Of a stretch of 64,000 bases of DNA, positions 54,318 to 62,502 are shown piece by piece. The notes under the pieces are model-generated. The model had not been told where the DNA came from, did not search any database, and was given only the letters and a program-made list of their open reading frames with translations. Made by a program: the position numbers and the translations under genes. Within the stretch, counting starts at the first letter, position 1, and each line of letters opens with the position of its first letter. Source of the stretch: Halodesulfovibrio sp. (GTDB lineage Bacteria > Desulfobacterota > Desulfovibrionia > Desulfovibrionales > Desulfovibrionaceae); contig NZ_JADMLB010000076.1 in NCBI RefSeq assembly GCF_015482765.1, positions 62,001-126,000 on the forward strand, in the 5' to 3' direction.

Positions 54318-54346
54318 TAAAAAAGGCCGACATATATCGGCCTTTC
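54318..54346 (-). terminator. Intrinsic terminator after the SBP/deaminase-like fusion gene
   Basis: Stem AAAGGCCGA-CATATA-TCGGCCTTT, with A-run on the plus strand giving U-run on the minus transcript. Confidence 0.8.
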
Positions 54347-54368: not shown

Positions 54369-55529
54369 CTATTCGTAGGTAAACCCTTTGTTACCGGAAA
54401 GAATAGGATATGGTAACAGTTGCGATACCATAATCATTTTCACATCGCCCTTATCAGGTTCAACTGCTGCAAGAATTCCTCGCCCAAATTCAAACAGGAA
54501 CTGGCGATCTTCAGCTGTCGGGGCAATCACAGATCCGTCAGGGGCAAGTGCTGCAACTGCACGAAAATCATATTCACCATCCGCCACGGCTTTCAAAATC
54601 GCAGTCTTAATTGCGGAAACTTTTTCCTTTGCAGTTTCAACGTTACAGCCCACATACGTTTTTCCGGAACGAGTAAGAACAGCAGCACCTACTGGAACTT
54701 TTGAGTACGGAGCATATGCATTTATCGCGGCTTCAGAGGCTGCTTCAAACAACTTGTTCATATCCTCTTCGTAAAGCTCAGGTACAAACCATTTTCGATA
54801 GATACGATCATATTCGCCAGAAGCTACTACGCGTTGAAAACCTTTATTCACCATTTCAAGAATGCGTCCCTTATCACGATTTACCGCAACAAAGGCTTCT
54901 GTAATTCGCATCAAGCTACCTACCGCACTAATTTTTCCATATTTAAAACGCTGCAGGTAATAATACGCCGTTTGTTCTGGCCCACAATACGCCTGAACCT
55001 CGTCGCGTCCCAATGCATGAATAGCATCAACTTTTGTGCGGAATGGCTTAATATTCATACCACCGAATTCTTCAAGAACACGCTGCTGAAAAGAGCCACG
55101 TTTCACAGAAACCCTTTGCCCGCGAAGCAACGTGATATTGCCAACACGATTCGGCGTTTTGGTAAACAAACGAATCTTCATTGGCAACGTCGGTTTCTCC
55201 GAAAAATTAAAAAGCAAACTACGCTGTTTTGTTTTTGCCATGCCGGTTGTTACATCAATTGAGCCGGAAGAAAGCTCCATCAAAACATGATCCCAAACAA
55301 GTGGACGCGTTACTAACTTGACGTTCTGTCCTTTAAAAATTGCGCGGATCAAATCAACGTCAAACCCGACAGCTTTTCCTTTAGCCTCTTCAAAAGAAAA
55401 AGGAGGAAATTCTCTGTCAAAACCATATACAACACGTATAGGCGCTTCTGCATATGCCTGTGGCACGACAATCAAAGAACATAGACTCAGGGCAAGACCC
55501 ATAAATACAGCGAACATTCGACAGCGCAT
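54369..55529 (-). CDS. Exported solute-binding protein fused to a catalytically inactive cytidine-deaminase-like domain
   Basis: Protein of 386 residues with a signal peptide (cleavage likely after QAYA, residue 27). Residues 31-250 form an SBP_bac_3 solute-binding domain (YGFDREFPPFSFEEAKGKAV, then GFDVDLIRAIF). Residues 258-386 read like a cytidine deaminase: AYAPYSKVPVGAAVLTRSGK, then GCNVETA. However, the zinc and catalytic residues are lost: where active enzymes have CAER this has SAIK (305-308), and PCGACRQ becomes PTAEDRQ. The ribose-binding Asn296 and Glu298 are kept, so it may bind a nucleoside without deaminating it. ATG follows AGGAGA. One continuous frame covers both domains, so this is not an assembly split. 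Confidence 0.85.
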   Translation of the reverse strand: MRCRMFAVFMGLALSLCSLIVVPQAYAEAPIRVVYGFDREFPPFSFEEAKGKAVGFDVDLIRAIFKGQNVKLVTRPLVWDHVLMELSSGSIDVTTGMAKTKQRSLLFNFSEKPTLPMKIRLFTKTPNRVGNITLLRGQRVSVKRGSFQQRVLEEFGGMNIKPFRTKVDAIHALGRDEVQAYCGPEQTAYYYLQRFKYGKISAVGSLMRITEAFVAVNRDKGRILEMVNKGFQRVVASGEYDRIYRKWFVPELYEEDMNKLFEAASEAAINAYAPYSKVPVGAAVLTRSGKTYVGCNVETAKEKVSAIKTAILKAVADGEYDFRAVAALAPDGSVIAPTAEDRQFLFEFGRGILAAVEPDKGDVKMIMVSQLLPYPILSGNKGFTYE

Positions 55530-55626
55530 TACTATCTCCTAAAAATAAACATGCTTTCCAATAAGCCTGCGTACATTTCAACAAAAACGTGCCTTTAGAA
55601 CGTGTCCATTCTACCTGCGAAACAAA

Positions 55627-55721: not shown

Positions 55722-56513
55722 TTAATTCTTTTTCAAACGTGCTAAAATTTCTTCGATCTTTTTCCGGTCTCTTCTAAAAATTTCTGAAGCATACTTTTTA
55801 ATTACTGCCTCAACAGTGTGACCAGTGCGAAGCTTTTCGTCTAATGGTGGAAGTTCCGGCAACTGCATTTCTTCCAGTTCGTCTTTCGGTACCAGCAACA
55901 TGCACATATCTTCACCGGGCACACAGCCGACTTCACTGTTAATCGTTCCAACAGCGCGCTGCTTTGCGACTTTATCCACATCCATTCCACGAACAACACT
56001 CAACACCTGTGTTGGCGCATGATCGCGATTCACTTTAACAATTCGGGCATTCAGCTCGTCACACCAATCCATATATCGGTAATACCCTGTTGTTCGACCA
56101 TATTTTTCAACCGTATTCTTCTTGTAAGTTGCACCATGCAGGAAAAACTCAAACGCTGTTTGCATTTTATCGTATGTTTGCAAAACACATTTTTTATATC
56201 GCCCTTCAGCGGTCAACGCGAAAGGTAACGGCATACTCAACCAAGGGTCAGTAAATTCTACACGATGCATAAACTCTACAGGAACTTCGAGAATACGAAA
56301 TAGTTTTTCAACATCACGCTCACTGGTCAATAATGCTATCAACTGGGCACAAGTGTTCAAGGCACGCTGTTCTGCCAGCCGAATATCACTTTCAGTCCGC
56401 TCAAAAAGCTCACGTTCATCATCAATTGCTTTACGCGCACCAAAAAAGCCGTTCGCTATATCGACCATAACTTCGCCCTGTAAGGCCGATGAAAGAGAAT
56501 TAAAATTTGTCAA
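55722..56513 (-). CDS. Hypothetical protein, 263 residues
   Basis: Soluble, charged protein with a helical N-terminal half ([20 protein letters not shown]) and a lysine-rich C-terminus ([18 protein letters not shown]). No motif that I recognise; no signal or membrane segment. It starts with TTG at 56513, nine bases after AGGAGG, which is a strong site and supports the unusual start. It diverges from pncC and is followed by a long inverted repeat. Confidence 0.8.
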
Positions 56514-61260: not shown

Positions 61261-62502
61261 CTATGCACGACTTTTCGGTAGAATGAGATTCAGAATAATA
61301 CCGATGATACCGGCAAGACCGATACCTTTGAGGCTGAATGCACCAGCGTGGAACGCCATGCCGCCAACGCCGAACACAAGAATAACAGCGATGATTGCAA
61401 GGTTACGCGGCTCCATGAGATCCTGACCAGCACGAACAAGAGAGTTCATGCCTACTACAACAATAGTACCGAACAGCAGTACAAGAATGCCACCCATAAC
61501 AGGTACCGGAATAGTTGCAAGAACAGCACCCAGCTTGCCTACAAAAGCAAGGCAGATAGCAACGATGGATGCCCATGTCATAATACCCGGGTTGAAAGAT
61601 TTTGTAAGTGCCACAGCACCGGTTACTTCGGAGTAGGTAGTGTTAGGAGGACCACCAAGCATAGAAGCAAAAGTTGTCGCAATACCATCACCGAACATTG
61701 TACGATGAACACCCGGTTCTTTAATGTAGTTTTTGCCGGTAACTGCACCAATGGCAAGAACATCACCAACGTGCTCAATCGCAGGAGCAATAGCAACCGG
61801 AACAATATACAGAATAGCTTCCCAGTTCCATTCAGGAGTTGTGAAGTCAGGTACAGCAAACCAAGGAGCATTTACAATCGGAGAAAAGTCTACAATACCG
61901 TAGAAAAGACTCAATACGTATCCAACAACGATACCGCAAAGGATTGGAATGAGTCTAAGCATACCCTTACCACACAAGGAAACGAGAATTGTTGTGCCAA
62001 GAGATGCCATAGAAATTATAAGAGCAGTCGGCTCAGCAATCAGCTGAACGGCACCGTCACCGGTTTTACCGAGCGCGTTAAATACAGCAACAGGAGCAAG
62101 CATAAGGCCGATAACCATAACAACTGGACCTGTTACGATAGTTGGCAGTACACGCTCAAGAATCTGCGGCCCCTGAATTTTGATGAGAACTGAAAGTCCC
62201 ATGTACAGAAAGCCGGAAGCAGCAAGGCCACACATGGTAGCTGGGATGCCCCAAGTCTGTACGCCGTAAATGATTGGTGCAATGAATGCAAAAGAAGACG
62301 CAAGAAAGATTGGTACAGAACGTTTGGTAACCAGCTGGAACAACAAGGTTCCAACACCGGCGGTAAAGAACGCCACGTTCGGGTTAAGTCCTGTGAGCAG
62401 CGGAACAAGTACAAGAGCACCGAATGCTACAAAAAGCATCTGAGCGCCGAGCAGGCAGTCTTTAAGCCTAAAAGAATATTCCGTATTTACGTTTGACACC
62501 AT
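61261..62502 (-). CDS. uraA: Uracil permease (NCS2/UraA family)
   Basis: Inner-membrane uracil:H+ symporter of 413 residues with about 14 helices. Conserved blocks include PVFLASSFAFIAPI-like SVPIFLASSFAFIAPI near residues 62-77, AIEHVGDVLAIG (Glu ligand of uracil) and GGPPNTTYSEVTGAVALT. ATG at 62502 follows GGAGGG; a GTG one codon in has better spacing. upp lies upstream on the same strand with a hairpin between, so the two form an uptake and salvage pair. Confidence 0.95.
   Translation of the reverse strand: MVSNVNTEYSFRLKDCLLGAQMLFVAFGALVLVPLLTGLNPNVAFFTAGVGTLLFQLVTKRSVPIFLASSFAFIAPIIYGVQTWGIPATMCGLAASGFLYMGLSVLIKIQGPQILERVLPTIVTGPVVMVIGLMLAPVAVFNALGKTGDGAVQLIAEPTALIISMASLGTTILVSLCGKGMLRLIPILCGIVVGYVLSLFYGIVDFSPIVNAPWFAVPDFTTPEWNWEAILYIVPVAIAPAIEHVGDVLAIGAVTGKNYIKEPGVHRTMFGDGIATTFASMLGGPPNTTYSEVTGAVALTKSFNPGIMTWASIVAICLAFVGKLGAVLATIPVPVMGGILVLLFGTIVVVGMNSLVRAGQDLMEPRNLAIIAVILVFGVGGMAFHAGAFSLKGIGLAGIIGIILNLILPKSRA

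Follow-up and report, generated by a model that had tools for sequence, protein, structure and literature searches.

Introduction

In SBP_bac_3 amino-acid-binding proteins, an Asp normally holds the amino group of the ligand, and the ligand carboxylate is held by an Arg whose equivalent we take to be Arg103 of the protein described here. ADAT3, an intracellular protein of the tRNA adenosine deaminase branch, has a deaminase fold without activity that is kept in a complex. For homotetramer-type cytidine deaminases (CDA; T-CDA), PMC9897663 proposes that regions I (VGA) and II (NxEN) support the tetramer. The residue roles used below were taken from that paper; residues of the deaminase domain are given here in the numbering of the Bacillus subtilis CDA, which the numbering of the paper exceeds by two at the second motif.

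In a window of 64,000 nucleotides (the whole stretch of DNA that was analysed) from a Halodesulfovibrio sp., we examined a gene that brings both domain types together. Its product appears to consist of an amino-acid-type binding domain and a zinc-free CDA pseudoenzyme domain, and is very likely exported.

Results

Architecture of the gene

The gene is located on the minus strand and carries the following features:

54369-55529, minus strand: whole gene, SBP_bac_3 plus pseudo cytidine deaminase, 386 aa, ATG start (ORF list, Pfam, NCBIfam)
55534-55540, minus strand: Shine-Dalgarno-like AGGAGAT preceding the ATG (direct reading)
55449-55529, minus strand: signal-peptide-like residues 1-27, A-Y-A at the end (direct reading and family hydropathy)
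54786-55430, minus strand: SBP_bac_3 domain, residues 34-248 (Pfam)
54408-54764, minus strand: T-CDA-derived putative pseudoenzyme domain, residues 256-374 (Pfam, NCBIfam, structure matches, model)
54636-54644, minus strand: retained N-V-E, residues 296-298, T-CDA positions 42-44 (family alignment)
54606-54617, minus strand: dead motif 1, SAIK replacing CAER, residues 305-308 (translation, family alignment)
54501-54521, minus strand: dead motif 2, PTAEDRQ replacing PCxxCRQ (PCGACRQ), residues 337-343 (translation, family alignment)
54320-54345, minus strand: terminator-like inverted repeat and T run directly past the stop codon (direct reading; absent from the list of the terminator scan)

The promoter and terminator scan yielded counts close to those of shuffles. 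Pfam assigned residues 34-248 to SBP_bac_3 (E 2.8e-28), residues 256-325 to dCMP_cyt_deam_2 (E 1.7e-8) and residues 257-322 to a second CDA zinc-region family, all three above the gathering score, and the NCBIfam cytidine deaminase model PRK05578 matched residues 255-374 with 80.9 bits (cut-off 74). When residues 253-386 were compared by sequence with solved structures, human CDA 1mq0 was the best match (E 1.8e-18), with B. subtilis CDA and other CDAs among the further near structures. Direct reading of the N-terminus revealed a hydrophobic segment with A-Y-A ahead of residue 28. The preliminary description of this DNA, which had placed an exported SBP_bac_3 domain and a CDA-like domain in one 386-residue frame, is borne out by the Pfam and NCBIfam matches and the signal-like N-terminus.

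Structure prediction was performed for the deaminase-like domain alone and for the full-length protein. The domain model reached a mean pLDDT of 85.7, its last ten residues being unsure; the best Foldseek match was mouse CDA 2fr5 (E 9.6e-12, TM 0.80), and VIA-align gave Z values of up to 20.4 (mycobacterial CDA 3mpz). Residues 258-386 had been expected to adopt a CDA fold, and the domain does model as a CDA. Since 13 of the 15 rows in the underlying alignment were unfused CDA-like sequences, the model confirms this fold more than it tests it, and the evidence for the predicted fold rests chiefly on sequence. The full-length model (mean pLDDT 49.3) left the SBP half unmodelled because only two alignment rows covered that half.

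Distribution of the fused proteins

A domain profile search (> 100 bits) detected the fusion in 47 of 348 genomes of the host class, all frames being at least 378 aa long except that of G251 (214 aa). With the protein as query, both halves were matched in 41 of 297 genomes of the order, belonging to 15 of 55 genera, all of the host's family; this set was chosen by eye from the match list and includes G251, the match of which lies in two contig pieces. The domain pair, seen at first in a single genome, therefore does occur elsewhere in the order. Within the host genus it was present in all ten genomes, and Halodesulfovibrio spirochaetisodalis (L005, Desulfovibrionaceae) carries a fused homologue with 88% identity. 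A draw of 395 genomes from the phylum contained two fused proteins, that of the host and that of G311. The latter is the sole fused genome among 63 of its class, a class other than the host's, which makes transfer possible. A full-length profile scan of viral contigs found no relative, and on plasmids the query was nowhere covered to 80%, only the SBP half being hit among the matches listed.

A script was used to extract the 48 fused frames and to align them. One extraction and alignment left out L006, L012 (taken as same species as L005), L046 and L048; the residue counts were made without the fused rows L012 and L048 and without the duplicates L085 and L086. Of the 48 fused rows, 40 were examined for their N-termini, and 39 of these, all but L040, have a comparable uncharged hydrophobic segment ahead of the SBP domain, as judged by a hydropathy rule applied to stop-to-stop frames and not by a signal-peptide program. 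Because the architecture recurs in 48 genomes, the fusion is no accident of frame or assembly.

Other combinations of CDA were also observed. At L069 and L070 (G042, G060), frames of 453 and 471 aa contain what appears by eye to be a nucleoside-phosphorylase-like domain together with a CDA part with intact CAE and PCxxC motifs. L077 and L078 (G098, G178) show a GrpB-like domain, likewise assigned by eye, then a short CDA-like domain with intact motifs.

Genomic surroundings and other deaminases

The gene immediately upstream of the fusion lies on the same strand and encodes a 263-aa protein without Pfam match (55722-56513, minus strand), and beyond it genes for CinA, an aminotransferase and cytidylate kinase are found. 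A gene of the xanthine/uracil permease family (61261-62502, minus strand) is located 5.7 kb upstream of the fusion. Twenty-two stretches (the window, 20 loci and L005) were compared. By tblastn, the permease-family gene was detected in five of them, some stretches being too short to reach it. A Pfam scan of 20 near-neighbour proteins, 9 of which were without any Pfam match, detected no transporter part, and among the near neighbours compared no partner gene is kept across the fused family. As far as the nearest neighbours show, the protein is an orphan binding protein; such proteins can pair with transporters encoded elsewhere.

Two of the neighbouring genes bear on a possible signalling partner. 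In the window and in three of the 21 other stretches (L005, L050 and L051), a chemoreceptor (methyl-accepting chemotaxis) gene lies downstream of the fusion in the same orientation, and in 9 of the 22 stretches a relative of the 263-aa protein is encoded immediately upstream, likewise in the same orientation (tblastn). The dead domain might provide a surface on which another protein, such as a chemoreceptor or sensor kinase, docks, and relay the state of the binding domain. However, neither gene is kept family-wide, and other members adjoin glucokinase, DNA polymerase III beta, PdxJ or IPP-transferase genes. We consider docking unlikely and rank it after the binding of a nucleoside, which is discussed below.

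A search of the 41 fused genomes of the order with the CDA model revealed no other T-CDA match; the fusion was the sole match in 40 of them, and that of G213 was missed by this search. Besides the fusion, a CDA match above the cut-off was obtained in 0 of 41 fused genomes versus 44 of 256 others. The chance of zero overlap is 8e-4 when counted by genome, but 0.09 by genus, so that shared ancestry may explain it. The absence of another T-CDA beside the fusion is confounded by ancestry in this way and is suggestive only.

The host genome contains four PF00383 matches, which by eye are TadA-like, dCMP-deaminase-like, RibD-like and, in one case, deaminase-like and exported. This exported-looking protein of 263 aa (L004:1138-1929, minus strand; G000:C66 near 19491, outside the window; PF00383, E 1.5e-13) keeps the zinc His and PCxxC in comparison with TadA, with HAE changed to HSA; the catalytic Glu may be missing in this protein too.

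Loss of the active site and conservation of other positions

The alignment demonstrated that the active site is lost throughout the fused family. Cys53 and Glu55 were each found in 0 of 48 fused domains compared to 35 of 35 free CDAs, a set that contains some odd or partial members (L077, L078 and L084). Cys86 and Cys89 were each absent from all 47 fused domains that reach the second motif, one row stopping earlier at a contig edge, and present in 31 of 35 free CDAs, the non-Cys cases there being three gaps and one other letter at each position. The replacement of the zinc and catalytic residues noted earlier for the host protein is accordingly common to every fused homologue, none of which retains the zinc ligands, and 39 of the 40 homologues examined for it also have a signal-like segment.

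The residues that took over these positions are not arbitrary. Position 53 is Ser or Thr in 43 of 48 fused rows, Gly or Gln also occurring, position 55 is Leu, Ile, Met or Val in 44 of 48, and position 89 is Asp or Glu in 45 of 47 (residue 341 in the host protein); the replacements at these three positions are not random. Position 86 holds Ser, Thr, Ala and others. The acidic position 89, a conserved change that differs from simple decay, could speak for a domain that is still catalytic with a different metal or without metal. Against this stand the residues now found at positions 53 and 86 and the loss of the catalytic Glu in all 48 rows, and we regard residual catalysis as very improbable.

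Several other positions are strongly kept in the fused rows, namely Pro20 (47/48), Gly27 (45/48), Ala28 (47/48), Glu44 (46/48), Ala54 (46/48), Ala58 (48/48), Glu95 (43/47) and Pro122 (44/47). The strongly kept positions, Gly27, Ala28, Glu44 and Asn45 (37/48) among them, belong to the core or fall within the regions for which PMC9897663 proposes tetramer support. Asn42 is found in 29 of 48 rows and Val26 in 12, positions 24 and 48 are variable (n = 48), and Phe125 remains in 1 of 40 fused rows versus 31 of 35 free CDAs, in which this position was located by a simple pattern. The features lost are the catalytic regions III and IV and the base pocket.

These counts bear on the proposal in the preliminary description that the ribose-contacting Asn and Glu remain and that the domain may be a nucleoside-binding module or sensor. 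Both residues are retained in the host protein (Asn296 and Glu298, corresponding to N42 and E44 of B. subtilis CDA), and in the host genus Asn42, Glu44 and Val26 are each found in 10 of 10 genomes; across the family the statement holds for the Glu but for the Asn in only 29 of 48 rows. A second site for a nucleoside or similar small molecule, which would make the protein a two-site receptor, is favoured by these residues and by the permease-family and cytidylate kinase genes upstream. However, the positions that line or close the pocket in T-CDA (24, 26, 48, 55, 86 and 125) are not conserved, and the aliphatic residues at position 55 also argue against it. The module as originally proposed is unsupported on this evidence. 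Because of the near-invariant Glu44, the Asn42 and Val26 of the host genus and the permease-family gene nearby, a nucleoside site nevertheless keeps about a fifth of our confidence, the largest share of any alternative to the scaffold function proposed below.

Phylogeny and selection

A maximum likelihood tree of 78 rows, based on few columns and omitting six rows of less than 95 residues (one fused, five free), placed the 47 fused rows on one side of a branch with a support of 100/98. With midpoint rooting, G311 formed the first split inside the fused clade. In the host clade, the dead domain had a median dN/dS (NG86) of 0.027, compared to 0.0265 in the SBP half, and for four more distant congeners 0.082 and 0.0895 were obtained, respectively; as dS was mostly above 1, these values are rough and valid only in order of magnitude. 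Of the 21 pairs compared for each half, one gave no value for the SBP half and four gave none for the dead domain.

At this rough level, purifying selection on the dead domain seems to resemble that on the SBP half, and the dead domain is not decaying. The loss of every catalytic residue could in itself suggest a relic without function, but selection of about the same strength on both halves, open frames in 48 genomes and a single clade make this hardly credible. The safest statement is that the protein is, by its sequence, an exported pseudoenzyme, a T-CDA homologue that has lost its catalytic residues while staying under selection.

The solute-binding half

Matching through PDB alignments was used to locate the ligand-binding positions of the SBP half. 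Arg103 is invariant (40 of 40 fused rows) and is aligned with the carboxylate-holding Arg of amino-acid-binding proteins. At the position of the usual Asp, Pro, Ala or Leu is found in 38 of 40 rows (Pro184 in the host protein) and Asp in none. In 24 of 40 rows, however, the next position is occupied by Asp or Glu, and an amino group might still be bound by such a shifted acid. These findings point to a binding half that would take an acidic ligand and not an ordinary amino acid.

Discussion

Proposed role of the dead domain

The best explanation in our view, to which we give an even chance, is that a T-CDA pseudoenzyme was retained as a scaffold through which an orphan periplasmic binding protein oligomerises. 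The loss of zinc and catalysis would have been a single event in the ancestor of the fused family, after which the old site was presumably repacked, with Cys53 replaced by Ser or Thr, Glu55 by Leu or Ile, and Cys89 by Asp or Glu. The CDA fold would have been retained for its quaternary structure and would gather several binding domains in the periplasm, each probably taking an acidic or carboxylate ligand. We suggest that the complex acts as a receptor or sensor rather than as a transporter subunit, since no transporter part was found among the nearest neighbours scanned. A scaffold is favoured because the core and the proposed tetramer regions are kept, while the catalytic regions and the base pocket are gone.

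Two observations argue in part against this assignment. Glu44 is a ribose contact and at the same time belongs to a proposed tetramer region, so its conservation would also suit ligand binding, as would the complete retention of Asn42, Glu44 and Val26 in the host genus. Furthermore, Tyr48 and Phe125, which reach across subunits, are lost and Val26 is found in only a quarter of the rows, so that the tetramer could be altered or gone. Scaffolding and binding might also be combined, in that a zinc-free CDA tetramer could form the hub of ancient periplasmic receptors, with pockets at the subunit contacts, bearing the new acidic position 89 and the old Glu44, that bind a ligand of their own and are coupled to four solute-binding arms. 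We regard such a hub as speculative and unlikely. The scaffold remains our preferred reading.

The fused family, carried by some sulfate-reducing bacteria and their relatives, seems to exemplify the natural recruitment of a nucleotide-salvage enzyme into an exported receptor, with loss of the residues needed for catalysis, and 48 sequences are available as a guide for mutagenesis. It also bears on annotation. In the comparison with the NCBIfam equivalog NF004064 (PRK05578), 16 of the zinc-less fused domains exceeded the curated cut-off, and automatic naming could label such domains cytidine deaminase. As no other match was detected in the 41 fused genomes, metabolic models could consequently credit these organisms with a salvage step that is absent.

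Comparison with known systems

The preliminary description knew of no protein of this architecture. A literature search for an SBP joined to a dead CDA, most subscription journals being outside its reach, likewise found no description, and neither deaminase nor cytidine was found in the accessible portion of the main text of PMC10102598.

With T-CDA (Bacillus subtilis, human and mouse CDA; PF00383/PF08211, PRK05578, TIGR01354), the fused domain shares homology over the whole domain and the predicted CDA fold, including GA and NxEN-like regions and an LLP near the C-terminus. It differs by the signal-like N-terminus, the fusion to an SBP, a clade of its own and the lack of the three zinc Cys, the catalytic Glu, Phe125 and Tyr48. 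With SBP_bac_3 proteins of the GlnH, ArtJ and LAO-binding type, the protein has the domain at residues 34-248 and Arg103 in common, whereas the usual amine-binding Asp is replaced, a putative pseudoenzyme follows at the C-terminus and no transporter is encoded among the near neighbours scanned.

Cyclohexadienyl dehydratase (5jos), MltF (6hqh) and the BvgS sensor (4q0c), all among the structure matches, use the SBP_bac_3 module in other jobs, as is likewise the case here; judged by their names, they have no deaminase domain. ADAT3 (7nz7_B, named 'probable inactive') provides the comparison for an inactive deaminase subunit. Pseudoenzymes are already known, as are SBP modules in unexpected combinations, and it is the pairing of an SBP with an apparently dead T-CDA that seems to be new.
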